A stretch of DNA of 34,523 nucleotides from a virus. The notes beneath the pieces are model-generated. The model made no database searches, was not told the DNA's origin, and saw nothing but the letters and a program-made list of their open reading frames with translations. Of this stretch, positions 2,290 through 31,231 are shown piece after piece. A program made the translations under genes and the position numbers. Numbering within the stretch: position 1 is the first letter of the stretch; every line of letters begins with the position of its first letter. The stretch spans positions 1-34,523 of IMG/VR virus record IMGVR_UViG_3300000553_000158. One strand, written 5' to 3'.

Positions 2290-3261
2290 ATGAACATCAA
2301 AGATTACGAAATTTTCAAATCTAATCATTATTCTGAATTTATTAATAATGGTAAAACTTATCTAATAAATCAAGAACCATATTTAGATGTAGTATTGACT
2401 GATAAATGTAATGCAAATTGTTCATTTTGTATTGCTGATTTAATACATAATAAATTAAATATTAATTTTGAAGTATTAAAAGAAAAGATATTATTTGCAG
2501 TTAATAACATGCAAGTAAAAGAAGTATTATTACTTGGTGGAGAACCAACTGTTAGCAATTTATTATTACCTACCATTAAATTTTTAACTACTTTAAATCT
2601 TAATAAAATCATCATTACTACAAATGGAATTAATATTGCCAAAAATGATACTTATAGAGAATCAATATTAAGTTCCGGTATTACACATTTAAATATATCA
2701 TTTATGAGTAATTGCAATGCACATCAAAAAGATATTGTTAATTCCAATTACATATTATCAATAAATGATTTAAAAATTATAAAAGAATGTGCTGATAAAT
2801 ATAATGTCAAAATTAGAATTAATAACAATATATTTAAAGGTAATAATGATACAATCTATGATATCTTAGATTTTTATGAAAAAATTAAAGATTATTGTCA
2901 TTCAATTAAATTCAGTCCATTATTAAAAGTAGATGCATTTAGTGTAATAGATATTAAAACTAAATGGGTCAATGAACATATATTAACAGATGAAGAATAT
3001 GACAATTTATTTGATTCTGTTATTAGATATTTTAATTATAAAGGAGTACAGGAAATAGTAAATGATGAACAATTTGGATTTGTTAAAAATGTACTACTTC
3101 CTTTTACCACTCCAATAATTTTTAACTATAACCAACATGGGCAAATGATGAATAAAGTTATTAATGAAAATAAAATTAATAATTTAAAAATACTTCCAAA
3201 TGGAGAATTATCATTAAGTTGGAATAGAGAATTAACTGAATATTTCATTAAGACAAATTAG
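2290..3261 (+). CDS. Radical SAM enzyme
   Basis: A 323-residue radical S-adenosylmethionine protein. The [4Fe-4S]-binding CxxxCxxC motif is CNANCSFC at residues 40-47, the SAM-binding GGEPT is at 83-87, and a TTNG strand lies at 110-113, all in the spacing usual for a MoaA/PqqE-type TIM barrel. The tail after about residue 260 has no cysteine cluster, so there is no SPASM or twitch auxiliary cluster domain. QueE is unlikely because that family has a different cysteine spacing. It is the last gene of the early plus-strand island and meets the minus-strand gene 3258-3830 stop to stop with a 4-nt overlap. The substrate is unknown; a small peptide encoded upstream, a nucleotide or a host protein are all possible. 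Confidence 0.9.
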   Translation: MNIKDYEIFKSNHYSEFINNGKTYLINQEPYLDVVLTDKCNANCSFCIADLIHNKLNINFEVLKEKILFAVNNMQVKEVLLLGGEPTVSNLLLPTIKFLTTLNLNKIIITTNGINIAKNDTYRESILSSGITHLNISFMSNCNAHQKDIVNSNYILSINDLKIIKECADKYNVKIRINNNIFKGNNDTIYDILDFYEKIKDYCHSIKFSPLLKVDAFSVIDIKTKWVNEHILTDEEYDNLFDSVIRYFNYKGVQEIVNDEQFGFVKNVLLPFTTPIIFNYNQHGQMMNKVINENKINNLKILPNGELSLSWNRELTEYFIKTN

Positions 3262-3830
3262 AAATTTTTATCAGTAATGGCTTCATGTAATGCTTGTTTC
3301 ATTTTATAATAATCGGCTAAAATTTTAGCTTTAACATGTTCAACTGGCATACCTTCATATATCCAATCTTCTACATCTCCATTTTCTGTAATGTATTGTT
3401 TAGCATCTATATTATTAATATAATCTAATATTTCAGCTTCTGATTGTCCTAAATAAGTTAATATATTTTCTTTTATTTTTTTATCAGAATAGTCATCAAA
3501 TTTACCTTCTGCCATTAATTTAGTATCTTCTTTAATAACACAATCAAAACATTTTCCTCTTAATCCCCAAAATTTTTCATCCAAATGATGATTCATAATT
3601 ATATTACAGGAAGGACAAAATAAAGGAACAGAACATTCTTTCCGCATAGAAGAAAATTTAGTTTTATTACATTTTATACCATCTTTAATAGTCCATACTT
3701 TACCACCTTCTTCCCATTCATCTCCTTCTTTATGATGTACATTATTTTCATATCCAACATGTATTTCTGTGCTGGAAGTATAGTCACCATATAATATGTT
3801 TCTTATTCTGTTTACCTTTATGTTGTCCAT
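3258..3830 (-). CDS. Zinc-ribbon-like phage protein of unknown function
   Basis: A 190-residue protein with two CxxC pairs, CPSC (about residues 72-75) and CFDC (about 94-97), that should bind one zinc ion. Before them lies a KEGDEWEEGGKVWTIKDGIK segment and after them a long helical region. The layout matches conserved proteins I remember from T4-like marine and Bacteroidota phages, but their role is not known to me. It is the last gene of the glycosyltransferase-led operon and ends convergently with the radical SAM gene. No transcription terminator is visible between the two convergent genes. Confidence 0.75.
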   Translation of the reverse strand: MDNIKVNRIRNILYGDYTSSTEIHVGYENNVHHKEGDEWEEGGKVWTIKDGIKCNKTKFSSMRKECSVPLFCPSCNIIMNHHLDEKFWGLRGKCFDCVIKEDTKLMAEGKFDDYSDKKIKENILTYLGQSEAEILDYINNIDAKQYITENGDVEDWIYEGMPVEHVKAKILADYYKMKQALHEAITDKNF

Positions 3831-3842
3831 TGTTTAGTTTAA

Positions 3843-4016
3843 TTATTCGTTAATATAGTTTTCTAAATTTTTAACTGCTTCTATGTATGCTAGTCTTAAT
3901 TCATGAAATTTTTCATCCTCTATGTCATTAAAACTACTATAATACATAAAACAATAATGAAATCCTTCATTATTGATTTTGCTTCGCATATATTCTTTAT
4001 CTTCTAAGTCCATCAT
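3843..4016 (-). CDS. 57-residue acidic protein
   Basis: A short ORF that fills the gap between two listed genes. It starts MMDLEDKEYMRSKI and ends KNLENYINE, with a helical profile and the segment FHYCFMYYSSF in the middle. Its start overlaps the TGA of the upstream gene (ATGA arrangement at 4013-4016), which points to translational coupling, and it ends 12 nt before the next start. I do not recognise a family; size, spacing and overlap support it being real. Confidence 0.65.
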   Translation of the reverse strand: MMDLEDKEYMRSKINNEGFHYCFMYYSSFNDIEDEKFHELRLAYIEAVKNLENYINE

Positions 4017-4264
4017 ACTTCAAATGATCGTTTAGCATTTTTTAAAAATTCCATTATATTATTTACATCTTCTTGGGTTGTTAAAATTACATCGTCTAAT
4101 ACCACTTGATATAATGATGTATTTTTTACTGATACTTTCATGTCTTGATCCATAGTATCGCATTCATATACTTTAGTTTTAATATTTTCATATAAACTAA
4201 ATTCATCTTCTTGACCTTCAATTGGTCTGTCTTTACCTTTAAATGTTTGAATTTCTAACTTCAT
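4013..4264 (-). CDS. 83-residue hypothetical protein
   Basis: A small acidic protein starting MKLEIQTFKGKDRPIEGQ. It has alternating hydrophobic strands (TSLYQVVLDDVILTT) followed by a helix (EDVNNIMEFLKNAKRSF), suggesting a small alpha/beta fold. It lies 3 nt after the upstream glycosyltransferase-fragment gene and overlaps the next gene by 4 nt. Function unknown. Confidence 0.65.
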   Translation of the reverse strand: MKLEIQTFKGKDRPIEGQEDEFSLYENIKTKVYECDTMDQDMKVSVKNTSLYQVVLDDVILTTQEDVNNIMEFLKNAKRSFEV

Positions 4265-4267
4265 TGT

Positions 4268-4756
4268 TTAATTATTTATTGTTTTTAATTGTAAAACTTT
4301 TTCTATTTCTTTAAATATTATATTTGGTGATACATATGCTTTACTGCAATGTTGCGTTTGCTCCCAAATATTAAATTGATCTTTTCTTAAATACTTTCTA
4401 TTTTTTAAAAGATTTATATTTTCTGGATAACCAAATATATTAGGATCACTTTGTGAAAATATAACTATACCTTGTTTATCTAATTTTTCAGAATGAATTA
4501 GATGTGGTAGAAAACTATCAACTGATATCCAAATATCGCATTTATTAACTTCGTCCATTATTTCTTTAAATGTTCTATCATATAAATATTCATCTAGATC
4601 TTTTAATGGAGTTTCTTTTGATGTTAATATCTGAATAATATAATATTCATTTTCTTTTAATAATTTTATTAATTGATCCCAATATGGATAATTCTTTGGA
4701 TTTTCTTTTTGATTTGTTAATTTGTTGCTATATGCAGCAATTAAGATTTTTTTCAT
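4268..4756 (-). CDS. GT9-like glycosyltransferase, C-terminal half
   Basis: A 162-residue protein resembling the C-terminal, nucleotide-sugar-binding half of family-9 glycosyltransferases (heptosyltransferase type). The segment CDIWISVDSFLPHLIHS (from about residue 89) followed by GIVIFSQSDPNIFGYP corresponds to the family pattern of a DSxxxHLA-type helix and then a GPTDP-like loop. The N-terminal half expected of a GT-B fold is missing here, but a matching piece forms the end of the 803-residue product encoded 12 nt upstream. The two may therefore form one split enzyme. The GT9 link is by pattern, not by search, and a stand-alone nucleotide-binding protein remains possible. Confidence 0.65.
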   Translation of the reverse strand: MKKILIAAYSNKLTNQKENPKNYPYWDQLIKLLKENEYYIIQILTSKETPLKDLDEYLYDRTFKEIMDEVNKCDIWISVDSFLPHLIHSEKLDKQGIVIFSQSDPNIFGYPENINLLKNRKYLRKDQFNIWEQTQHCSKAYVSPNIIFKEIEKVLQLKTINN

Positions 4757-9053: not shown

Positions 9054-11624
9054 TTAAATTTGAATTGAACTATAAGTTTTTGATGTATCTATTTCTATTA
9101 TTCTGTCAGTCATATCTCTCATAATTGCTAAATGAGAAATTACAAATACAAAATCAAATTCTGATTTAAGGTAATTAAATAATATTGGTATATTACTTAA
9201 ATTATCAGAATCTAAATTGCCCATTCCTTCATCTATAATTAAGAAATTTGGTTTTGTAATATTGGCTATTTTTGTTAGTGCCACTCTAATTGCTATAGAT
9301 GATATAAACTTTTCCATTCCACTTGTTAATTTAAGTGGCCAAGTTTTATCATTATATACAATATTCATTTCTATATTCTTTTCATCTATATAAATTAAAG
9401 TTTTAAAATCCACTATTTGTGATAATATATTATTAATTTCTTGTTCAAATATAGGTAATATTTTTTTAATTAATTCATATTGTATTCCATCTCTATGAGT
9501 AGCTTTTAGATAATGTTCATATGCAATAAATTTTTCTTCATATGTTTGCATTTGAGTAAGATTATCAGCTATTTGTAATCTCTTAGATTCTATTAATTGT
9601 AATTTACTATTTAATGTATTTAAATCATTACTTTCCTTTTTATGTTTAATTTTAATATCATCCAATAAAGAAGTTATATTTTCTATTTGTTCTTTTAAAG
9701 ATTTATTATTTTCAATTACTAATTGGTTATTATAATAATCTTCAATATTTGTAATTACATGTTTTAATCCAGACTTTTGTAATTTAAGTTTAGTAGTAAC
9801 AGTTTCTAAATTATTAGTTAATGTATTATATAAAGTTCTTAGTTTTTCTTTATAATCTAATAATTTTTTATATTTATCAGACTCTGTTTCTACTAATACT
9901 AATTCTTCTATGCTAGTATTTAATTCTATTAATTCATCTGATAATTTAACAAGTAAATCATTATTAGTAGCAAAATCTTGTTTAGTATTTATGGCATCTT
10001 TTACAAATATATTATTCATACAATAAGTACAATCAGGATCATATTCTAATTTATCTAATTTATCCAATTTATCTTTTTGATTTTTTATATTAACTTTTAA
10101 TATATTAATCTTATTAGATAATGTTTGTTTATATGATCTTAATTCTTCTAATTGTTTTAATTTAGTTTCAAATATTGAAAGATCATAAGTATTTAATTTA
10201 GTATTTACTTTCTTAGCATTAACAGCAATTTCTTTAATTTTTTCTTTTATAGAATCATATTCAATATCTAATCTTGATATTTCATTTTCATGATTAGTTT
10301 TTTGTAATTTTAAATCGTTTATATTACCATTAAAATTTATCTTTTGTAATTCTGAAGATAAAGATATAATTTGTTTAGAATAATCATCTTGTTGTATTTC
10401 ATATTCTTTTATTGTATCTTCTATTGTATCAATATCTATAAGTAATTTTTTATAATCTAATTCTAAAGTAAATAATTCAGTATCATAATTCTTCTTTTTA
10501 TATTCAGTTAATAATGTATTAACTTGTCTTGATTCTACATTAGCTAATTGATATAATCTTTCAAATATATCTATACCAAGAAATGATGATAATATATTTT
10601 TTCTTTCTGCTTGTGATTTATCTATTAATCCTGCATTATTATTTTGTAATGATATAGAAGTTAAAATTATATTATCATATAATCCAACCACATCCTGTAT
10701 ATTAGCATTGGTACTATTTCTTTGATCGCCATTTAAATTTTCTATTTTACCATTTAAATCTTCTGACCAGAAATTAGTTTTTATGGATACACTATCAGAA
10801 ATTCTTTTCTTAGCAGGTTTTCTAGTACCTGTTTTTTCAATGAAATAATTTATACCATTTAATTCAAATCTAATTTTAGAATAGAATTCATCTTTATCTA
10901 TATTCAAAAAATCAATTCCTTTAAATGCTCTTGAACTCTTATCAAATAATAAAAATAATATAATATCTAATAAAGAAGATTTACCAGTTTTATTGGCACT
11001 ATATAATCCATATATACCAGTTAAGTCTTCAAAATCTATATAATTATTTTCACCAAAACAAAATAAATTAGAAAACCATAATTCTTTTATCTTCCATTGA
11101 TTAATAGGAGGAGTTTCAAATGTATCTAATTTTACATTTAGTTCTCTATTTATCTTTTCAATTTCAGTTAATATGTTTGCTGTAATATTATGGCTATGTA
11201 AAGAAAGATATTGATTAATTAATGTATTTTGATAATCTACAGATTTAATATCTCCTAATACAGTCATACCAGATTTAGAAATATATTCTTTATCTGCTGT
11301 AGATACTATTGATAAACTCTTTATATTATAATTAGAACGTAATTGTATTATAAATTTTTCTAATTTAGTTATACTTACATTATGTACTAATAATCTTACA
11401 TGTGGAAATTTTGGCAATGTTAAATCCGTAGGAAATTTATTATTTTCAATTTTAATAGTAAAATATCCTACATCATTTGGAATTTGAATGAATTCATGCG
11501 TATTAGTATTTAAATTCCATTTTAATAAGCCATGCTCTGTAATATGCTCGCCATGATTCTGCTGGATTGTTGATGATGCGTAGCTGGTAGCTGGTAATTT
11601 CCTTTGTATTTTTATCTTAGTCAT
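9054..11624 (-). CDS. sbcC: SbcC/gp46-like ATPase with the SbcD C-terminus fused in front
   Basis: An 856-residue Rad50/SbcC-type recombination ATPase. Residues ~5-175 are not SbcC: they start with ATSYASSTIQQNHGE and HGLLKWNLN, which is the usual end of the SbcD/Mre11 phosphoesterase core, and continue as a cap-like domain. The SbcC part starts near 176; the P-loop is SANKTGKS (209-216, first Gly replaced by Ser). Long coiled coils flank the zinc-hook CTYC near 530. The ABC signature SGMEKF is near 765, Walker B FLIIDEG near 795 and the H-loop ISH further on. With the SbcD fragment encoded upstream it should process DNA ends for recombination-dependent replication. It overlaps the inserted 103-residue gene by 8 nt. 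Confidence 0.9.
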   Translation of the reverse strand: MTKIKIQRKLPATSYASSTIQQNHGEHITEHGLLKWNLNTNTHEFIQIPNDVGYFTIKIENNKFPTDLTLPKFPHVRLLVHNVSITKLEKFIIQLRSNYNIKSLSIVSTADKEYISKSGMTVLGDIKSVDYQNTLINQYLSLHSHNITANILTEIEKINRELNVKLDTFETPPINQWKIKELWFSNLFCFGENNYIDFEDLTGIYGLYSANKTGKSSLLDIILFLLFDKSSRAFKGIDFLNIDKDEFYSKIRFELNGINYFIEKTGTRKPAKKRISDSVSIKTNFWSEDLNGKIENLNGDQRNSTNANIQDVVGLYDNIILTSISLQNNNAGLIDKSQAERKNILSSFLGIDIFERLYQLANVESRQVNTLLTEYKKKNYDTELFTLELDYKKLLIDIDTIEDTIKEYEIQQDDYSKQIISLSSELQKINFNGNINDLKLQKTNHENEISRLDIEYDSIKEKIKEIAVNAKKVNTKLNTYDLSIFETKLKQLEELRSYKQTLSNKINILKVNIKNQKDKLDKLDKLEYDPDCTYCMNNIFVKDAINTKQDFATNNDLLVKLSDELIELNTSIEELVLVETESDKYKKLLDYKEKLRTLYNTLTNNLETVTTKLKLQKSGLKHVITNIEDYYNNQLVIENNKSLKEQIENITSLLDDIKIKHKKESNDLNTLNSKLQLIESKRLQIADNLTQMQTYEEKFIAYEHYLKATHRDGIQYELIKKILPIFEQEINNILSQIVDFKTLIYIDEKNIEMNIVYNDKTWPLKLTSGMEKFISSIAIRVALTKIANITKPNFLIIDEGMGNLDSDNLSNIPILFNYLKSEFDFVFVISHLAIMRDMTDRIIEIDTSKTYSSIQI

Positions 11625-11928
11625 TTGGAAGTATTTTAATTTGATTAGCTAGGAACCATTTTCCACCTTGAGTATCTGGACGTATAAATTCTGTATAATC
11701 TTTTATTTCTACTTTTAACCAGATTCTATCTTTTTCACTTAAATGTGGAGCATTTGGAGTTTCAGTACAATGCCAATATGGTCTAACTTTAAATCCTTTT
11801 GTAGGAATACATTCAGCTTGTAACCATTCATTTAATGGTAGTGATCTTGATTTATTGATAAATAATGAAGTTATATTACCAGATTTTAATTTTCTAAATA
11901 ACTTATAAGCAATTATTGTATTTGCCAT
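11617..11928 (-). CDS. Small conserved protein inserted within the SbcD coding region
   Basis: A 103-residue protein starting MANTIIAYKLFRKLKSG. The pattern SLFINK...LPLNEWLQAE...PTKGFKVRPYWHC...PHLSEKDRIW matches a small conserved family that I recall as common in phages and bacteria; its function is unknown. It starts inside the last codons of the SbcD fragment gene (16-nt overlap) and its stop overlaps the start of the SbcC fusion gene by 8 nt, each in a different frame. It therefore sits exactly where the SbcD coding sequence is broken. The intact family pattern shows it is a real gene and not a sequencing artefact. Co-translation with both neighbours is likely. Confidence 0.8.
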   Translation of the reverse strand: MANTIIAYKLFRKLKSGNITSLFINKSRSLPLNEWLQAECIPTKGFKVRPYWHCTETPNAPHLSEKDRIWLKVEIKDYTEFIRPDTQGGKWFLANQIKILPND

Positions 11929-12632
11929 CCTTGTGCTAAATATTGTTCTAGTTTAGATTCGTCTATTTCTAATTCTTCTAATTTATAGTCTTGTAATGTT
12001 TGATATTTATGTATATCACCAAGCATAGTAATATCAGCTCCAATAAATTTATCTAATGTCATATGATTAGTTGTCATTGCCATTCCATTATCTAATATAC
12101 ATCCATCTACTACTCCATGATATAAACATATTTTCTTACTAGCAGTCGATTCACTTACTGGAAAATAATTTTCTGGATTATCGAATACTGAAAATACTAT
12201 AAAATCTAAATCATATTGTGGTAATGAATAAATACCAGTATCTTTTAAATAAAATAAATTAGGATGATTTAGTAATTCTATAATAGGTAATAATACATCT
12301 AATCTATCTTTATTATTTAAATTACAATCATGATTTCCAGCTATAAGAAATGTAGGTGCTATATCTGCTAATGATCTTAAGAAAGTAGATATCATTTGTA
12401 TTAGTTCAGGACTCATATCTGTCTTAGCATGTGATATATCTCCTGTAACTACTATTATAAATTCTTCTGAAGTATCTTGCTTTATAGTTTCATATACTCT
12501 TTCAAATACATAATTATATTCAGTATGTCTTTTGAAGTTACGAATATGGATATCAGAGAGTTGATAGACATTATGCAGACTTTTTAGACTTAGATTTATC
12601 GAGTTTCTTTTGATTTCTTTTTTCGGCATCAT
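11913..12632 (-). CDS. sbcD: SbcD/gp47-like nuclease, catalytic core only (split gene)
   Basis: A 239-residue calcineurin-like phosphoesterase, the nuclease subunit of SbcCD/Mre11-Rad50. All metal-binding motifs are present: SDIH (26-29), TGD (63-65), GNHD (99-102), YHG (171-173) and GDIH (205-208). The family normally continues with a strand reading like YPGSLIQQNxGE and a cap domain; here the homology stops after HKYQTLQ (214) and an unrelated tail with ESKLEQYLAQGW follows. The missing strand and cap are encoded at the start of the SbcC-like gene. The start is uncertain: the first ~20 residues overlap the 3' end of the upstream gene by 62 nt and conserved sequence begins at NVYQLSDIH. Confidence 0.88.
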   Translation of the reverse strand: MMPKKEIKRNSINLSLKSLHNVYQLSDIHIRNFKRHTEYNYVFERVYETIKQDTSEEFIIVVTGDISHAKTDMSPELIQMISTFLRSLADIAPTFLIAGNHDCNLNNKDRLDVLLPIIELLNHPNLFYLKDTGIYSLPQYDLDFIVFSVFDNPENYFPVSESTASKKICLYHGVVDGCILDNGMAMTTNHMTLDKFIGADITMLGDIHKYQTLQDYKLEELEIDESKLEQYLAQGWQIQ

Positions 12633-17147: not shown

Positions 17148-17921
17148 TTAATAAGTTAGAATTGTAGGAATATTATCAATACATTTTATATTTGAAAATT
17201 GATTATCAGTACCATCGACGAATTTAATACAAAAATTTGTATATAATCCATTTAATTTAACTTCAATATAATCTTCATATTGTAATGACTTATTATATTC
17301 AGGATGGTATTTAAATAATGCATGTACAAAATCAACTATTTCGGTATCATATATAAATTTATCAATTGGTAATTGAGATAAAATACATCTACAAAATTTC
17401 CTTATTTTAAGTTTGTTATTAAATGAATAAATACCTAATTTATATGTACCATTTAAATTTAAAAAGGTATATGCATCTTTACTATGTTTAGCATAATCAG
17501 TATTTTTATCTCTTACAATTATATTATCAACTAATTCATGATCATTATATTTATGGTAATATGAATGACAATATTCACATAAAGTAATTAAACTACTATT
17601 TGGATATAACCACGGATCTACTTTTTTTCTGTAATAATATGTATGATGAACTTGTAATCCTTTAGTTGCACCACATTCCATACATTTTTTATCTCTATTA
17701 ATAATTTCAAGTCTTTTAATAGCCCATTCTTTAGTTGCTAATAACATTGGATATGTAGCCGATGGATATTTTATAACTGCCGGAATTTCGTTGTTTTTAT
17801 TTACTATTTCTTGAACAATAGGTAAATTTGGTACTATTTTTATAACTTCTTCAATTACTTTAGAGTTAACTACTTTATATTTATTTGATTTTAATCGTTT
17901 CTTTCGTTTATATTTTTTCAT
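17148..17921 (-). CDS. HNH endonuclease
   Basis: A 257-residue protein with a very basic N-terminus (KKYKRKKRLKSNKYK), which may bind DNA. The HNH/ββα-metal fold lies at about 76-125: CMEC (80-83), VHH (91-93), Asn108 and CEYCH (115-119), so two CxxC pairs should hold a structural zinc and His92/93, Asn108 and a late His form the active site. The C-terminal ~130 residues are of unknown fold. It overlaps the helicase gene by 4 nt, suggesting an integral part of the operon and not a free-standing homing endonuclease, though a homing role cannot be excluded. Confidence 0.85.
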   Translation of the reverse strand: MKKYKRKKRLKSNKYKVVNSKVIEEVIKIVPNLPIVQEIVNKNNEIPAVIKYPSATYPMLLATKEWAIKRLEIINRDKKCMECGATKGLQVHHTYYYRKKVDPWLYPNSSLITLCEYCHSYYHKYNDHELVDNIIVRDKNTDYAKHSKDAYTFLNLNGTYKLGIYSFNNKLKIRKFCRCILSQLPIDKFIYDTEIVDFVHALFKYHPEYNKSLQYEDYIEVKLNGLYTNFCIKFVDGTDNQFSNIKCIDNIPTILTY

Positions 17922-19633
17922 AATATATTTAATTTTGGTCTAGTTACTATATATCCACTATATGTTTTTTTATTTATTGTTTTATTTTGCGGTCGAGATT
18001 CATAATAATTGCTGATATCAGAGCCTTTAGGTGCTTTAAAAATTTCTAATTTTTTATATATTTCGGCGAATGTTTTTTTTAATTTTGAAGATTCTATAAA
18101 ATCGCCATTATCAATAGCAAGTTCATTTTTTAACATGTAAAATATTTTATTTGATAATTCTATATCAGATTTAGCAATTAATGCATTTTTTATATTAGTA
18201 ACATTATAATTTTTTTTTCTGATACCGACATATCCTAACTTTTTAATTGCATCAATTAAAAAAGGCCATTTTTCATTTGCTAAATTAATCAATTCAAAAT
18301 CATTTTTATTAGCTTCAATTTCAATCATAGTATCTTTAAAAGTTTTATATACTCCGGTTAAATAAGTATCATGTACTCCTTCTGTAACCGAATATCCATT
18401 TGATTCATATTCCTTTGTTACATTAACACGCAATTTATATAATTCTTTAGTAATTTTAAAATTATAACGATCTAAATTAACTAAATTATAATCAACAATA
18501 TATTTATTATCTACTTTACTAAGATAAGCATTATTAAGTTTTTGAATTTGTTTAATAGCTGTATCTGATAAACTATTATATTCAAGAGCTAATTTTTTGC
18601 AATTATCAATCATATCTTCTGTAAATCTTACGTATTCTAGATAATCATTATTTTTTAATGAATATCTAGTATTTGTATATATATGATATATAGTATCCCA
18701 ATATTTAGTATTTCTAATTCTACCTGCAATCTGTTGAAATGCAGTTGATATATCTAATAATGTCGTAGAACGTTTACCATCAGATATAATATATATTATT
18801 GCATTTTCATCATAAATATCACAACCTTCAAATACTGTTTCAGTTAAAAAATTAATTTTTCTTGGTAAATCTAACACTGTACTTCGTTTTAATCCTGTTT
18901 CAGCAGTATTGCTTTCACTCCATATAGCTCTAGCATTATCATCATTTAAATTACATATTTTTACCATTAATTTTATAAAATCAACTGAATTTACGAAAAA
19001 ATATGCATTTCCAATTTTCTCATCATTTAAATATTCATATATTAATTTTACTATTTTATCATTTACATTGGTTCTACATTTAATAGAATTAACTGAAACT
19101 GTTTTTACGTTATCCCATACTGCTTCTACTAATTTAATATTTTTTAATTCTGTTAATATAAAATCTGTCTCTAATAATGTAGCTGTCATAAAACAGAATT
19201 CTTTATATCTAGTGTAATTTTCTAATACACATTTTACAGCATCATTTCTAAATGCATATTTAATAAATAACAAATGATATTCATCGATTAAAATATTATA
19301 TTTTGATGTATCGATTAAATCATTTAATTTATATAATGAATCATATGTTACCATTATTTTTGGTGACTTTGTAGTTTTTAAATATTCTTTTAATTTCTTT
19401 TTTGAAATATATCCATCTATTTTAAAAATCAAATCTTTATTTTGCTCATATTTATTTTTTATTAAAGCTCTATATGGTACTGCTATTACATAAGGATTTT
19501 TAGATTGTAATGCAATTGTAGTACCACCACATCCTACTTTACCTTTATCAAATATACAATTAGCTGGCAATTCAGATATAGCTGTACTAATATATTGAGT
19601 ACCATTTGGAATATTTATTATTTCTTTAATCAT
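17918..19633 (-). CDS. SF2 helicase-like ATPase with altered P-loop
   Basis: A 571-residue superfamily 2 helicase. Motif I is GKVGCGGTT (31-39), where the usual lysine of GxGKT is replaced by Gly37; motif II is DEYH (117-120); motif III is MTATLL (149-154); motif VI is QQIAGRIR (300-307), with the arginine finger. Segment VPYRALIKNK (52-61) is the motif Ia position. I remember related proteins with a GGTT-type P-loop in Bacteroidota phages. It could unwind branched or R-loop DNA together with the RuvC-like and HNH proteins in the same operon. The 5' leader is long (about 80 nt after a late-type motif) and holds small hairpins. Confidence 0.8.
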   Translation of the reverse strand: MIKEIINIPNGTQYISTAISELPANCIFDKGKVGCGGTTIALQSKNPYVIAVPYRALIKNKYEQNKDLIFKIDGYISKKKLKEYLKTTKSPKIMVTYDSLYKLNDLIDTSKYNILIDEYHLLFIKYAFRNDAVKCVLENYTRYKEFCFMTATLLETDFILTELKNIKLVEAVWDNVKTVSVNSIKCRTNVNDKIVKLIYEYLNDEKIGNAYFFVNSVDFIKLMVKICNLNDDNARAIWSESNTAETGLKRSTVLDLPRKINFLTETVFEGCDIYDENAIIYIISDGKRSTTLLDISTAFQQIAGRIRNTKYWDTIYHIYTNTRYSLKNNDYLEYVRFTEDMIDNCKKLALEYNSLSDTAIKQIQKLNNAYLSKVDNKYIVDYNLVNLDRYNFKITKELYKLRVNVTKEYESNGYSVTEGVHDTYLTGVYKTFKDTMIEIEANKNDFELINLANEKWPFLIDAIKKLGYVGIRKKNYNVTNIKNALIAKSDIELSNKIFYMLKNELAIDNGDFIESSKLKKTFAEIYKKLEIFKAPKGSDISNYYESRPQNKTINKKTYSGYIVTRPKLNIL

Positions 19634-23836: not shown

Positions 23837-26800
23837 TTAATCAGGAGTAATATTTAATGGAGATAATCCATCATAAGTTGATATAGCACTTACATTTAAA
23901 CTAGGTAATAAACTAGCAGCAGTACCTGTATATAAACTAGAAGTATTATATATTTTACATCCTAAATATCTGTTACGTCTCATCCCTGCCGATATAGATC
24001 TATTATCAGAACAACTAACATAAGTTACTCCATTAGTAGTTATTATTTGTGATAATGCTGTAGGTGACGTTATATATTCTTCAATAACACTTTGCATATC
24101 ATTACTAGAAACACTTCTATAAGATCTTAATCCAACTTCTATAGTTCCAGTATGTGTAATATTCATAGCTTGTATTTGTGTAATATTGGCAATATTAATT
24201 TCAGCTTCATTATATATTGACATACCACTTAAAGTATCATTATTTAATAAACTAATAGTATCTTCATATATAAGATTAATAATTGTTGGCTCTGATTTAA
24301 TGAAATTTATTTTAGATCTATCTAATATATGTGGTTCTACCACTAATCCAACTACTGTATTTGATCGTGCTGGACTTAAATCTTGTACATGATAGAAAAA
24401 TTCTTTATTATAAAATCTAATTAAATTATTATATTCATTAATATTAACTCCTGTATATTTGGAATTATATAATTCTTTTAATGTTCTTAAATCTTTATAT
24501 TCATCATCATAAATAGAATTCCATGAACCAATATAATCATCTATATTAACACCACCCATTTGATAAGCAATATCTTGATTAATTTCATTTGTTAATGAAA
24601 AATATACTCCAAATTTACTTGAATCATTAGGATAGATATCATAAGCAGAAACTTCTTTAGACTTAGTCATATCCAATTGTCCTTCTAAATAATTAGATTC
24701 TATTCTAATTTTATCAGATATAGATCTATTAGCAGATATATCAGGCCACGTAGTATGATGATAATCATATTCATCATTATAACCATAATCCATACTTGAA
24801 GTAACATTAATATTAAATACAACATTATTAGTATTTAATGACGACGTACTTGGATTATAATTTGGTACATTACTTGGAATATAATTTGATCCAGTAACTA
24901 ATGTATATTTTACATTATCACTTCCAAGTGGTAATCTACCAATTAAATTAGTATATGATTCAGTATCTGTAATACCATTATATGAACTTGGAGATAATAT
25001 ATGTTGTTTAAATATATCTATACTTTGTGTAATATCCCATATTTTAATTTCTTGTAATGATCCGGAAAAATTATTATGTATGATAAAATTATTATAATTA
25101 GGAGCTAATTCTGGTATTAATGTTATATAATCAGGATTTGTAAGATTATTAAGCCAATCATTAATTATATCTTTATTATACATTATAAACATTGCAGGAA
25201 ATACTTTATAAGTATTAACTCCACTATTCATACATATAATGGAATATAATTTATTATTATATGGATATACAATTACTCCATCTTGATGTTGGGTGTAATT
25301 TGAATAATTATTGTTCAATGCTACATTCATAATTACAGGATTACTCATATATTCTTCGAATAATCCAGTAGAATTATTAAATGTATAAAATCCATTTGTT
25401 TTAGAGATATTTCCAATTTCTCCTATATTACCATTATCATCTCCTACACATATACAATATAAATATCCATTATACTCAAACATATTCGGAAGCTCTGTAT
25501 ATCCTACATTCCAACAATAATCTGGTCTATTTAATCCTAATGTCTGAACTAATGTTAAAGACATATTGCTAAGACTACCACTCCATGTAAATATACATGC
25601 TACATATGGATTGGGTCTTAAATCATTCGAAAGTTGAACAGTTAGTCCAATATAGTGTATGCCTTTATAATATATATAACTTCCTTCAGACATTGCAACT
25701 ACATTACCACCATTAATAGTTCCTGTATAAGTAAATTTATTAGGACTATATGTATAATGAATAAAATCAGTAGTAGTCATTATTCCTACACCTTTGCTTA
25801 TCTGATCAAATAATAAAGTATGTATATTTCCATTTATATTATTACTACTCATACATGGTATAATCATAGAACTATTATCCATCCATGATGGTAATGTTCC
25901 TGTTGAAATTGGAGTTATAGTTGTCATGCTACTCCAATTAACAAAATCTATAGAAGTTGATTGTCCAAATCCTAAATAATTCGAACCATCATTATATACC
26001 AATAAAGATATAAACTTATTATTATATCTACTAACATATCTACAAACAGTATTTATATGTCCACTACTTATAGGTGTTAAATTCAAAGGAATCCAAGTCT
26101 GTTGAGGATTTCTAAATCCTACAATAGTATCAACCAAAAATTGAGAACCTACATTAATAGGAGCATGGGCATCAAATACAGATACAATTCTTACTGTTAA
26201 TGTATTATCACCTGAACTGCCAAGATTAAAAGTATTAGTAGAATATACAGTATCAGCAATAAATCCACCATGTGGATCAGAAACGACAGTAACAATTCTT
26301 GATGATGGTATTAAATTAGTACCTTCAGAAATCAAATTAAGAATTAATTCAGTGTCTACATTTATTTGTAAATCAATATTATATCCAGCAACTCTGGATG
26401 TTAAAGTAACTATACCAGAATTATAATTTGAAGAAAATAATGGATCTTCTATTGTTCCTATATAATTACTTGATATTTCTAAATTTATTGCTTTTGATAA
26501 ATTTTGTAATGTAATATTATCATCTGTTCCTATTAATATACTTCCATCTGAATGTCCAGATAAAGAATCATAAAATGTATAAATGGTTGTGATATCCGCA
26601 TTATTTGTTATAGATATTGTAGCCCCATCTGTTATAATTCCACCTGTACTTTCTAATGTCCAAATAACAGGCGTCGCAGGTACTTCAGGAATTAATCCTA
26701 TTTCTATAATTGCCCCATTATTTGTATCAGGATTCATTATTAATATTTGATCACCAACATTATACCCATTACCAGGATTTTCAATTATAAGTGAATCAAT

Positions 26801-29800
26801 AGAATTCACTATAATATAATATGATGTTTGACCATTAACTAATTGAAAATTAAATGTATTTGATGTTAGTTGATTTGATAATTGTAATATATAATCAGTT
26901 TGAGTTACTGGCTTTCCTATTATATACATTTGCCAATACTGAGCATTTGACATATTTTGTATATTTGGCAGTATTATTTTTTTGTCAATACTGATAATAT
27001 TATTAATCCAATCAACAGAAGTTATCTTAAATTCTTTTGTAATATCCACATAATTAGCTGATGAAGATATATCTATATTGTCATGTTTTATTAATGCAGG
27101 AAATATACTATACTCGATAACATAATTGGTATGTCCAAACGATAATTCTGGTAATAATGATTGATAATTAGGATTAGTACGATTATCAACCCAATTTTGC
27201 ACCAATTCATTATTATGCATAATAATTAAAGCAGGAATTACTTTATATGTATTACTACCTTCATTAAAACATGGCATCGCATATAACTTATTATTATATG
27301 GATATATTGGGCATGCATCTTGATGATCTCTATATCCTGTATATGCAGCATCAAATTCTACATTTAATATAATAGGATTACTCATATATTCTTCGAATAA
27401 TCCAGTAGAATTATTAAATGTATAAAGTCCATTTGTTTTTCCTACATTGCCAATTTCTCCGGCATATCCATTATCATCACCAACGCATATACAGTATAAT
27501 TTATTATAATATTCATACATTAATGGAAGTTCTGTATATCCACAGTTCCATGAATGTTGAGGTTTATTTAATCCTAATGTCTGAACTAATGTTAAAGACA
27601 TATTATTTAAATTACCTCCCCATGTAAATATACAAGCAACATATGGATTGGGTCTTAAATCGTTATCTAACTGGATTGTTAATCCAATATAATGAGTTCC
27701 ATTATAATACATATAACTACCTTCACTCATTAATACAATATTACCACCATTTATGGTTCCTGTATAAGTAAATTTATTAGGACTATATGTATAATGAATA
27801 AAATCAGTAGTAGTCATTATTCCTAATCCTTTGCCTATTTGATCAAATAATAAAGTATGTATATTTCCATTTATATTATTACTACTCATACATGGTATAA
27901 TAACAGATGTATTGTCCATCCATGCAGGTAAACTCCCAATTGATAAAGGAAATATACGATTAATATAACTCCAAGTAGTAAAATCATCAGATGTAGCAAT
28001 TCCATATCCTACATATGATAATCCTGCATTAAATAATATTAACGCAACAAATTTATCATTTTGTCTTGATATATATCTACATGTATGATTTACAAATGAA
28101 GGTAAAGTATATAATTCGTCTTTTACACTAAGTACTTTTATTGTTAAAGTGCCATCACCTGTACCAATAGTACCATCATCAGGTAATCTTTCTGAATATG
28201 TTGTGTTGATAATTTGATCTACTACACGTCCTCCTACATCATAAGGATTTCCGATATATATTAGTGGTGGTGGATTACTATCATCTATTGTAACATTATA
28301 TGGGCTATTAGTTACTTTTATTAGAAATGCTTGTGAATAATAATGTGGATTAGGATTACTATCTGTTATATATAATCCATCTCCATCAGAATAATTACTA
28401 CCCATATTATATATTTCTGCTGTATCTATTACACCATGAACTAAAATAGAAGGAGCGTCTTGTAATGCTGTTAAACTTAAAGGAATCCATGTTTGTTGTG
28501 GATTCCTAAATCCTACTTGTGATCCTGATACAAAAGTAGCAATTAGATCAGGATCTAATATAAAAGAATATTCAGTAACACTTGTACATCTAATAGTAAG
28601 ATTACCATCGCCAGTTCCTATATCACCAGGATTAGCTGGAATATGTTGACTATAACTAGTATTATAAACTCCACCTACTACATATCCTGGTTCAGCTGTC
28701 GTTATATTATAAATCCCTAAATTATATCCTCCTGTTACTCCAAGAATAAAAGATGTAGTATAATCTAATGTGCATATTGGATTAACAACATATAATATAT
28801 CTCCATTAGAATAATTCGATCCTTTATTAACAATTTCGGCAGTTACTAATTCGCCTGCATATGTTACAGTACCTTGATCTGGTACGATTTCAAATTTAAA
28901 TGTATTTGGATCTACTTGAGATGTCAATTGTAATAATGTAGTAGCAGATAATGGTGCAAATATATACATTTGCCAATATTGAGCATTGACTTTATTTTGT
29001 ATATTTGGTAAAATTATAGCTTTATCAACAGTAACAATATTGTTAATCCAATCAATACTTGTAACATGAAATTGATTAGTAGGATTATTATAACTATTTG
29101 TACTATTAATATTATCACCCATTATTACAGCTGGAAACATATTATCTCCAGATGATAATGAAAATGAACTACTATATAAAGTATCAATATATTTTTGATT
29201 TTTATGTCCAATATACAAATCACAATTATTATAATCTGAAATATTTATCATACAATTATACCACTCATCTTCTTGTATTTGAATTCCAGTAGAACCAAAT
29301 ACCATATCAGAATTATAATTTATAATTCCATTATCATCAGTATATAATATTAAATTATGATTTAAATCAGACACAATTACATTATTTTTTTGATTTAATT
29401 TAAATCTAAATTCAATACATTCATCCACAGCATTATTGATTATTCCAGTGATATTGCTGGTATTAACATTATCATTTTCAAAATAATATGAATAAAAATA
29501 CTTATTGTAATCATATACAGAATCAATATCTAATTTTTCAGGTCCGCCATATTCTTTAATTCTTAACATAGTATTTGGAATACCATAGCAATTAGCTAAA
29601 GCATTAATACCTTCTACAGTACCTTTTGTTTTATTAAGATAAGGTAAATTATTTAAAATTCTTTTCCATCCTTCAGTTATTATATCGACAGATTTAGACC
29701 CAGTGCTTAAATTAATTTGAGCAGATGAATGAGAAGGTATATTAGAATTATAATTCCATAATTCATCAAATTGTGCAGTACTTTGTACATCCCAACCATA

Positions 29801-31231
29801 AGAAACTAATGAATCATATATTAAACTTTTAGCAATTCCAATATTAATATCTTCATGTTTATCGTTAACATTTAATATATTGTCAACATATAATTTAATA
29901 TCATCAAAATATTGTCCTGATAAATATATCATTTGCATAAATTCATCATTATATTCATTAGTTGATATATAACCAGGAATTATTTTTTCTAAAGAATATA
30001 TGTTTTGTAAATCATAACTTTCTGCATAATCATATATATTTGCTTTCCAATTTTCAAATTGTGAAGATGTATATGAATATAATGTATATGGTTTATTAGT
30101 ATTTGATTTTGGATATGTTAAAGATGGATAAATAGATGCAGTTACATCTGTTAAACTCTTACTTTCAAAATATAGATATTGTTCATAATTATTAAATTTA
30201 TTAATAATATCAGCTTTATTATTTTGTAATATAGTTATATCATTAGTTAAAGAAGCAGTTGGATTAGATTGTAATATAGAATAATAATCTAAAATATTAC
30301 TATCATAATCTTGTATTTTCTTTACTTTTGTAATAAAATTATCTAATTGTACTGTAGCATTACTATAATAAACAAAATGTTCAAAATCTGTATAATCTAC
30401 ATTTAATTTCATTCCATAATTTTGTGAACTAGAATAACTATTCATCACAAAATCTGCTATACTATAATTATTAACATAATCTAATGTCGAACCTGTAGTA
30501 TGAGTTATTGATTCATATGATTGGTAACTCATATTAGATTGAGTATCTCTATTTATCTTGATACTAAAATTTGGTTGTTTAAGAATATTAACATTAGATA
30601 AAATATCTGAAGTGACTAAATTAATGTCTACAATAGTATCATTGGCTAATTTATATGTTACATAACATTTAGATTGCAAATCAAATTTAGGATCTAATGG
30701 AGTTTTTAATTTTATATATACACCCCCGGAAACAACATCTGGTAAGAAATTAATAATAGTATTATATTCATTATTTAATAAATTTAAATTATAATCTATA
30801 ATAATATTATCGACAGTTTTCTTATTAGTGGTATTTGTATTGTGTTTTAAAGAATTTATTTCATTAGTAATAATAGTATTTGGTGTAACTGGAATTAATA
30901 ATAATTCAGTTCTATCATTTGATATTTCTTGTATAAATAAATTATCATTAATACTACCAACTATATCTTGTTCTAATATATATTTTAACTTATATTGACC
31001 ACTATAATAACCAGCATTTCTAGCATCATTATGAATATCTAAAATTAAAGAAGGAATTGAATTTTTAGTAGAATATTTCCAACCTGTAATATTATAATTA
31101 GAAGATATATATAAATCATCAACAGAATAAACATGAAGATTTAATATAGCATTATTAGTACTAAGAGTTTTTTTTCCAATATCTAATGGTTTATTTATAT
31201 TAACTGGTATTGTTTTTTGTAAATCATTCAT
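23837..31231 (-). CDS. Giant tail/baseplate protein with duplicated propeller-like modules
   Basis: A 2464-residue virion protein. Residues 1-~590 form an all-beta start and a helical region ending in NLPYLNKTKGTVEGINALAN (about 527-546), a pattern I know from large Bacteroidota-phage tail proteins. A LamG-like jelly roll begins near 598 and runs to PAVIMGDN (about 705), then resumes at FSGSLQEIKIWD (about 2054). Between them sit two tandem modules of ~680 residues (721-1400 and 1401-2050), each with a beta unit (SVDWINN), GxxYxxGD repeats, RNPQQTWIPL and a GH43/sialidase-like propeller (TTTDFIHYTYSPN). The end has VVGLVVEPHILDRSK. Host-surface binding or sugar cleavage is inferred; catalytic residues were not identified. 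Confidence 0.8.
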   Translation of the reverse strand: MNDLQKTIPVNINKPLDIGKKTLSTNNAILNLHVYSVDDLYISSNYNITGWKYSTKNSIPSLILDIHNDARNAGYYSGQYKLKYILEQDIVGSINDNLFIQEISNDRTELLLIPVTPNTIITNEINSLKHNTNTTNKKTVDNIIIDYNLNLLNNEYNTIINFLPDVVSGGVYIKLKTPLDPKFDLQSKCYVTYKLANDTIVDINLVTSDILSNVNILKQPNFSIKINRDTQSNMSYQSYESITHTTGSTLDYVNNYSIADFVMNSYSSSQNYGMKLNVDYTDFEHFVYYSNATVQLDNFITKVKKIQDYDSNILDYYSILQSNPTASLTNDITILQNNKADIINKFNNYEQYLYFESKSLTDVTASIYPSLTYPKSNTNKPYTLYSYTSSQFENWKANIYDYAESYDLQNIYSLEKIIPGYISTNEYNDEFMQMIYLSGQYFDDIKLYVDNILNVNDKHEDINIGIAKSLIYDSLVSYGWDVQSTAQFDELWNYNSNIPSHSSAQINLSTGSKSVDIITEGWKRILNNLPYLNKTKGTVEGINALANCYGIPNTMLRIKEYGGPEKLDIDSVYDYNKYFYSYYFENDNVNTSNITGIINNAVDECIEFRFKLNQKNNVIVSDLNHNLILYTDDNGIINYNSDMVFGSTGIQIQEDEWYNCMINISDYNNCDLYIGHKNQKYIDTLYSSSFSLSSGDNMFPAVIMGDNINSTNSYNNPTNQFHVTSIDWINNIVTVDKAIILPNIQNKVNAQYWQMYIFAPLSATTLLQLTSQVDPNTFKFEIVPDQGTVTYAGELVTAEIVNKGSNYSNGDILYVVNPICTLDYTTSFILGVTGGYNLGIYNITTAEPGYVVGGVYNTSYSQHIPANPGDIGTGDGNLTIRCTSVTEYSFILDPDLIATFVSGSQVGFRNPQQTWIPLSLTALQDAPSILVHGVIDTAEIYNMGSNYSDGDGLYITDSNPNPHYYSQAFLIKVTNSPYNVTIDDSNPPPLIYIGNPYDVGGRVVDQIINTTYSERLPDDGTIGTGDGTLTIKVLSVKDELYTLPSFVNHTCRYISRQNDKFVALILFNAGLSYVGYGIATSDDFTTWSYINRIFPLSIGSLPAWMDNTSVIIPCMSSNNINGNIHTLLFDQIGKGLGIMTTTDFIHYTYSPNKFTYTGTINGGNIVLMSEGSYMYYNGTHYIGLTIQLDNDLRPNPYVACIFTWGGNLNNMSLTLVQTLGLNKPQHSWNCGYTELPLMYEYYNKLYCICVGDDNGYAGEIGNVGKTNGLYTFNNSTGLFEEYMSNPIILNVEFDAAYTGYRDHQDACPIYPYNNKLYAMPCFNEGSNTYKVIPALIIMHNNELVQNWVDNRTNPNYQSLLPELSFGHTNYVIEYSIFPALIKHDNIDISSSANYVDITKEFKITSVDWINNIISIDKKIILPNIQNMSNAQYWQMYIIGKPVTQTDYILQLSNQLTSNTFNFQLVNGQTSYYIIVNSIDSLIIENPGNGYNVGDQILIMNPDTNNGAIIEIGLIPEVPATPVIWTLESTGGIITDGATISITNNADITTIYTFYDSLSGHSDGSILIGTDDNITLQNLSKAINLEISSNYIGTIEDPLFSSNYNSGIVTLTSRVAGYNIDLQINVDTELILNLISEGTNLIPSSRIVTVVSDPHGGFIADTVYSTNTFNLGSSGDNTLTVRIVSVFDAHAPINVGSQFLVDTIVGFRNPQQTWIPLNLTPISSGHINTVCRYVSRYNNKFISLLVYNDGSNYLGFGQSTSIDFVNWSSMTTITPISTGTLPSWMDNSSMIIPCMSSNNINGNIHTLLFDQISKGVGIMTTTDFIHYTYSPNKFTYTGTINGGNVVAMSEGSYIYYKGIHYIGLTVQLSNDLRPNPYVACIFTWSGSLSNMSLTLVQTLGLNRPDYCWNVGYTELPNMFEYNGYLYCICVGDDNGNIGEIGNISKTNGFYTFNNSTGLFEEYMSNPVIMNVALNNNYSNYTQHQDGVIVYPYNNKLYSIICMNSGVNTYKVFPAMFIMYNKDIINDWLNNLTNPDYITLIPELAPNYNNFIIHNNFSGSLQEIKIWDITQSIDIFKQHILSPSSYNGITDTESYTNLIGRLPLGSDNVKYTLVTGSNYIPSNVPNYNPSTSSLNTNNVVFNINVTSSMDYGYNDEYDYHHTTWPDISANRSISDKIRIESNYLEGQLDMTKSKEVSAYDIYPNDSSKFGVYFSLTNEINQDIAYQMGGVNIDDYIGSWNSIYDDEYKDLRTLKELYNSKYTGVNINEYNNLIRFYNKEFFYHVQDLSPARSNTVVGLVVEPHILDRSKINFIKSEPTIINLIYEDTISLLNNDTLSGMSIYNEAEINIANITQIQAMNITHTGTIEVGLRSYRSVSSNDMQSVIEEYITSPTALSQIITTNGVTYVSCSDNRSISAGMRRNRYLGCKIYNTSSLYTGTAASLLPSLNVSAISTYDGLSPLNITPD
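25080..27031 (-). repeat. Tandem module, copy 2, inside the giant tail gene
   Basis: Second copy in translation order, encoding about residues 1401-2050. It begins FKITSVDWINN and ends near LIPELAPNYNN. Compared with copy 1 it holds an extra VIWTLESTGGIITDGATISI unit and fewer GxNYxxGD repeats. DNA around 25721-25860 is nearly identical to 27758-27897 in copy 1. Confidence 0.8.
27032..29071 (-). repeat. Tandem module, copy 1, inside the giant tail gene
   Basis: First copy in translation order, encoding about residues 721-1400. It begins FHVTSIDWINN, holds two GSNYSxGD repeats and a propeller-like segment ending near SLLPELSFGH. The offset to copy 2 is 2040 nt (680 codons) at both ends, dropping to 2037 nt in the propeller, so the reading frame is kept. 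Confidence 0.8.

Follow-up and report, generated by a model that had tools for sequence, protein, structure and literature searches.

An Mre11/Rad50-type phage nuclease gene likely split by a homing endonuclease, its product likely reassembled in trans through suture peptides

The reassembly of enzyme halves after a mobile endonuclease has broken their gene has been studied in only a few phage enzymes. In Aeromonas phage Aeh1, nrdA is split by a free-standing endonuclease (mobE), and the enzyme is active in pieces, as NrdA-a and NrdA-b (PMC2988022, PMC3267527, PMC3653736); the new C- and N-terminal tails at that break are reported to be essential for assembly (Crona et al. 2011). The topoisomerase gene 39/60 of T4, which encodes an essential DNA enzyme, is split by mobA into genes for separate subunits (PMC2988022), and to our knowledge no shared suture peptide is known there. 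Fractured genes for DNA enzymes, carrying split inteins and a free-standing Vsr-like endonuclease gene between the halves, have reportedly been described (Dassa et al. 2009). EDxHD homing endonucleases are an established family (PMC3943268). They are Vsr-like. Fusions of the Mimivirus R555 type, which join an Mre11-like N-terminus to a Rad50-like ATPase, are abundant in aquatic virus metagenomes (PMC3175470).

Here we describe an Mre11/Rad50-type nuclease that was likely split by a homing endonuclease and is likely reassembled in trans by suture peptides; this reading rests on no experiment, and both complex formation and activity are inferred. What appears to be new is a conserved suture across SbcD lineages, accompanied by endonuclease swap, decay, cargo replacement and re-fusion, while breakage and reassembly as such are already known. 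The literature that we searched contained no title or abstract on an endonuclease-split SbcD.

The split locus and its unbroken relatives

The window, by which we mean the whole 34,523-nt stretch of DNA analysed, is a 34.5-kb virus contig, and the features of the locus lie on its minus strand. The SbcD part (D, 11913-12632, 239 aa) displays the DIH, GD, GNHD, YHG and GDIH motifs of a calcineurin-type phosphoesterase (Metallophos match, E 1.5e-9). Its residues 1-209 (12006..12632) form the SbcD/Mre11 catalytic core, which holds all metal-binding motifs, ends in GDIHK and aligns to the N-terminus of intact fusions; residues 210-239 with the stop codon (11913..12005) form a tail, YQTLQDYKLEELEIDESKLEQYLAQGWQIQ, common to all complete split D proteins. 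The SbcC-like part (C, 9054-11624, 856 aa) begins with a leader of 16 residues that has its own start codon (MTKIKIQRKLPATSYA, 11577..11624) and continues with the SbcD closing strand (SSTIQQNHGE) and cap region (residues 17-120, 11265..11576), tethered to an SbcC/Rad50-like ATPase (residues 193-856, 9054..11048). The ATPase motifs are intact (P-loop TGKSS at residue 213, CTYC hook at 532, signature at 768, Walker B at 796), and C matches PHROG SbcC (phrog_77, E 4e-39), a Rad50 model (E 7e-14) and AAA_23 (E 8e-5, under the curated cut-off of that model). Between them, in the break, lies I (11617-11928, 103 aa), a member of phrog_12224 of unknown function, which shares 16 nt with D and 8 nt with C and is read in a different frame from both. 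D and C share one frame: their starts are 336 codons apart, with nine in-frame stops between. At the break, D reads GDIHKYQTLQ plus 25 residues and C reads 16 residues before SSTIQQNHGE; those last 25 residues of D belong to the tail found on every complete split D and are not junk.

The last metal-binding motif (12012-12020, D residues 205-208) is GDIH, not the GHxH usual in Mre11 and SbcD, and this is so in nearly all members of the family, intact or split.

Searching viral contigs with D yielded 80 loci, many of them with a single ORF (~1050 aa where complete), and about 100 related loci are unbroken. D residues 1-209 (or 1-217) and C residues 14-855 align consecutively to the intact ORF. 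The junction in the intact form is GDIHKPAQYLNEEKTIAYPGSLIQQNYAE, and intact relatives with 'GDIHKPAQYLNEEKTIAYPGSLIQQNYAEALVHG' identify 'SSTIQQNHGEHITEHG', that is, C from residue 17, as the missing SbcD piece. The 167 parsed loci, some of which overlap one another and many of which are truncated by contig ends, comprise 109 fusions, 48 split loci, 5 re-fused and 5 undecided. Among the phages with an intact fusion is a cultured one, Microcystis phage Mel-JY01. Viral Mre11/Rad50 fusions are already known (PMC3175470), so the parent form has precedent. The window locus has what defines an SbcD-SbcC fusion family member, Mre11 motifs and a Rad50 ATPase collinear with intact fusions, here as two adjacent ORFs; it also has what is expected of a gene split by a homing endonuclease, an unbroken allele in relatives and a break at one defined site. 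The window arrangement with the 103-aa gene was itself seen only once, and the window has no close relative; with dozens of other contigs sharing the same break, chance or an assembly error is nevertheless unlikely.

These results bear on a preliminary description made from sequence alone. Its layout (a 239-aa SbcD fragment, a 103-aa gene at the break that overlaps both neighbours, and an 856-aa SbcC-like protein) held, as did its claim, now supported by alignment to intact relatives, that SSTIQQNHGE and the cap at the start of C are the missing SbcD piece. It had also inferred an ancestral SbcD-SbcC fusion and proposed a search for an unbroken one in related phages: such fusions were found (the 109 above), and the inference held.

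Occupants and mobility of the break

The same break occurs in several other lineages, including phages in which SbcD is not fused to SbcC, and there the usual insert is a homing endonuclease (Vsr-like or TnsA-like) or the debris of one. We refer to groups as 'freshwater' or 'marine'; these are our own labels, and sample origins are not their basis. In the freshwater-type fused group, the break of L002 is occupied by a zinc-finger/HNH-like gene and that of L004 by the decayed gene of a Vsr-like endonuclease (MTES_1575, E 3e-7; Vsr, E 0.004), and L084 has a shorter remnant there. Two further members of this group, L015 and L088, and with them L017, have an sbcD-sbcC that has been re-fused, apparently through deletion of the insert, so that one frame runs through part of the tail and the leader. 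The marine-type clade (L005-L050) has a ~300-aa gene in the break that we named glycosyltransferase-like, on a weak heptosyltransferase match only (E 0.0024), and a 484-kb phage (L159, LR756508) has a zinc finger and a TnsA-like nuclease there (E 6e-6).

In the unfused type, intact SbcD is ~270 aa long (L214-L232), and the split loci have the order D core, ~300-aa zinc-finger endonuclease, then a 72-94-aa protein with the rest of SbcD. The endonuclease is of the TnsA-like type in L166, L173 and L203 (by similarity to L159) and of the Vsr/homing-endonuclease type in L198, L199, L216 and L226. Intact loci with an empty site (L214/L215) and split, occupied ones (L203/L213) are 87-88% identical, with the next gene matching. 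At L235 the endonuclease has been lost: 86 nt are left, encoding RFWGDDIKKKNF..NTIKEY, an end that resembles that of L198, and the halves are still separate. A homing endonuclease gene is present in the break of L159, L173, L198, L203, L216 and L226, and debris in that of L004, L084 and L235; the window break contains no homing endonuclease gene or remnant, only the 103-aa phrog_12224 gene. The C-terminal piece of SbcD is retained in every complete split locus examined.

Members of phrog_12224 occur elsewhere in 40 phage records without a related SbcD match, and in a contig stretch (L082) with no SbcD nearby. The 103-aa gene is thus a widespread stand-alone phage gene, and it is likely to be later cargo in the slot, its status as a passenger being inferred.

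The distribution of the break was compared with trees of the host gene. In the SbcD-core tree, freshwater-type splits are interspersed among intact fusions: L002 is sister to the intact L057 (100/99) and L004 to the re-fused L015 (100/96), while the placement of the window is unsure (long branch). Supported branches require at least four changes of fusion state in this tree, and at least three are forced in that of the unfused family. Co-conversion beside the break, the pattern expected of homing, is shown for one clear case, the freshwater-type pair L002/L003. L002 matches its sister L057 at 493 of 555 upstream nucleotides, but at only 17 of the last 30 near the break (Fisher p 2e-5); against the more distant split L003 it is 76% identical upstream, then 42 nucleotides are identical, with 97% over the first 60 nt beyond. 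The left flank of L203 compared with L214 showed no step or excess adjoining the break; the evidence for co-conversion is this one strong pair.

Other mobile elements, or candidates for them, were seen beside these loci. The separate SbcC of L199/L200 (6478-8675) has an intein-like insertion at the P-loop (Intein_splicing, E 0.001, below cut-off), so that one phage combines a spliced-type insert in SbcC with a suture-type break in SbcD. Near the split sbcD of L166 (minus strand, 2684-4456), a 590-aa ORF with a LAGLIDADG domain (Hom_end, E 6e-5) is probably an intein. In the window itself, an HNH endonuclease gene with DUF3223 (17148-17921, minus strand) overlaps by 4 nt the end of a DEAD-box helicase-like gene (17918-19633) and could be another free-standing mobile endonuclease. 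The window also encodes a 2464-aa protein (23837-31231, minus strand) with no PHROG match at E 0.001.

Tail and leader peptides and the predicted fold

In the tails of complete split D proteins, E, Y and GW are invariant in both SbcD types (pattern E..Y...GW), and in each of the 25 pairs compared, a fused-type and an unfused-type tail aligned better than shuffled sequences did (p 0.0005 to 0.026). Every C half begins with a basic leader; the leaders have a KIKIKR-like strand in common, and their similarity is weak between distant lineages. Such novel, conserved terminal extensions at the break are what characterizes a split enzyme of the Aeh1 NrdA type. Across 24 marine-type loci, dN/dS was lowest in the C segment after the leader (0.08) and in the core (0.10), and somewhat higher in the leader (0.16) and the tail (0.18-0.23); as a control, the tail read in the other two frames gave 1.0 and 2.0. 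Because synonymous substitutions approach saturation, these absolute values are only approximate. The marine-type tail and leader are selected as protein (purifying selection), although these loci contain no endonuclease. The tail also persists in the endonuclease-free L084 and L235.

The tail resembles the EELDKYLxxGW (EELDKYLxxGWxxG) module that ends phage HNH/GIY-YIG endonucleases, and this module is a possible source of it. A wider role of the tail, as a general suture on other phage genes, gained no support: a scan of viral-contig DNA and all fetched loci found the tail motif only on split SbcD and in endonuclease modules, which is weak evidence given that the loci are biased. Scanning with the start of C returned no relatives. 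An assignment of tail and leader to a DUF4177 domain is not claimed, the matches being too weak (E 0.1 and 0.02).

For structure prediction with AlphaFold, the window DNA was read through D into C residue 120 with the stops as Ser, giving a single chain with a junk linker. The alignment used (A8) consisted of fusions and trimmed halves; mixed alignments had misplaced tails and leaders. In the resulting model (pLDDT 78, pTM 0.77), D, the start of C, the tail and the leader are ordered, and the linker falls below 50. The tail forms strands at 211-214 and 217-223, a helix at 225-233 and a strand from 237 (block means 92, 81 and 75), and the leader strand has a block value of 89. All 24 PDB matches below E 0.001 are Mre11/SbcD, and their alignments must span both halves because they are 439-502 columns long. 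When D was predicted alone, with tails in the alignment, its core was still confident and the tail helix was kept, but the tail strands were lost and residues 209-218 fell below 50. TM scores to the same Mre11 chains rose from 0.37-0.45 for D alone to 0.51-0.63 with C (0.40 versus 0.63 for 3thn; 0.37 versus 0.51 for 3qg5_D). The models thus predict a single Mre11 fold, completed by D together with the start of C and with tail and leader ordered, and the predicted loss of the tail strands without C fits strand complementation by C. These predictions are limited by the single-chain device, the lack of a contact map, the different alignments of each run and the position of part of the strand at 237-245 in the linker.

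Alternative readings, proposed history and known systems

Among the alternatives, the one that survives best accepts that D and C reassemble in trans, and holds that the tail and leader are leftovers of a mobile gene (for example, a DNA-binding module) without a role, the large complementary interface of the nuclease domain being enough. The resemblance of the tail to the endonuclease end module favors it, as does the re-fused L015, which lacks the second half of the tail. We consider it unlikely: purifying selection acts on tail and leader in a marine clade without any endonuclease, the E, Y and GW positions are invariant across both SbcD types, and L084 and L235 have kept the tail without having an endonuclease.

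A second alternative does without reassembly: D would be either a nuclease sufficient in itself or a half in decay, and C an ATPase that works alone. In its favor, D has all metal-binding motifs and a confident core when predicted alone. Against it, the SbcD C-terminal piece is kept on C, or as the 72-94-aa protein in unfused phages, dN/dS in the marine clade is low both before and after the break, and the ATPase motifs of C are intact. Because no complete split locus examined has lost the C-terminal piece, D is unlikely to work alone, and we regard this alternative as a whole as very improbable.

Joining of the halves covalently or at the RNA level (intron, split intein or ribosomal bypass) is all but ruled out: the intein-like segment in SbcC of L199 indicates that such elements occur among these phages, but tail and leader evolve in the manner of protein sequence, the halves are separated by nine stops as well as by an overlapping gene (which makes read-through untenable), a bypass of ~290 nt is implausible, no Rfam intron matched in the window or 13 occupied loci, and neither a Hint/intein domain in D or C nor intein-type junction residues in tail or leader were found. 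Vsr-like endonucleases reportedly occur at split-intein loci (Dassa et al. 2009). They are also known from introns.

We therefore return to reassembly in trans by suture peptides as the preferred reading. The ancestor would have been a single SbcD-SbcC fusion polypeptide, now two proteins, and the break would lie within the nuclease domain, in the loop that leads from the last metal-binding motif (GDIH) to the closing beta strand. A homing endonuclease gene would invade phage sbcD at this position and spread by cutting alleles still uninterrupted, its flanks being copied along with it; it would then decay, be lost or be replaced, here by the 103-aa gene. Two additions would let the enzyme tolerate the break: a C-terminal tail on the upstream half (strand, helix and conserved Y...GW) and, on the downstream half, a short basic strand at the N-terminus that has its own start codon. 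In trans, the tail would pair with the leader, and C would supply the closing strand and cap that the nuclease domain lacks, no splicing being needed. That the window's own break started as an endonuclease insertion, with cargo replacement later, is inferred as the simplest order.

The preliminary description had held that insertion of the small gene broke the fusion. This is amended: because the same break in relatives usually holds an endonuclease or its debris, the breaker was probably a homing endonuclease, and the 103-aa gene a later occupant. Its claim of reassembly in trans, for which it had suggested predicting the complex of the two parts, is supported by the single completed Mre11 fold, predicted as one read-through chain and not as a multimer; assembly and activity remain inferred. 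It missed the D tail and the C leader, conserved peptides that probably aid reassembly.

A bolder reading, which we would not quite expect to hold, is that tail and leader together form a protein zipper that is portable and needs no splicing: a beta-alpha-beta docking domain in two parts, which travels with a homing endonuclease element. Such a zipper would achieve at the protein level what splicing achieves for inteins and introns, neutralization of the insertion, and it would outlive the endonuclease, leaving a lasting cargo slot inside a DNA-repair gene.

With one Mre11 break seen in occupied, decayed, cargo-swapped, re-fused and empty states, the origin, spread and neutralization of such an insertion can be traced stepwise. 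A working suture would be a split-protein pair made by nature, and would show how a selfish insertion can end as a stable two-subunit enzyme without any splicing. Relative to the R555-type fusions, which have the unbroken parent architecture, the window gene is broken inside the Mre11 domain; a direct relationship is not implied. The fractured genes of Dassa et al. have the same two-part layout of a DNA enzyme with a Vsr-like gene, whereas the split SbcD has a short tail and leader and no intein, and for that reason no ligation is expected. T4 gene 39/60 is likewise a DNA enzyme gene split by an endonuclease, for a different enzyme. As in Aeh1 NrdA, an enzyme gene appears to have been split by a free-standing homing endonuclease to give two polypeptides, with activity on the SbcD side inferred by analogy. 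Unlike Aeh1 NrdA, the enzyme and endonuclease are others, and the SbcD break recurs across lineages with one conserved tail type and displays swapped endonucleases, decay, unrelated cargo and re-fusion.
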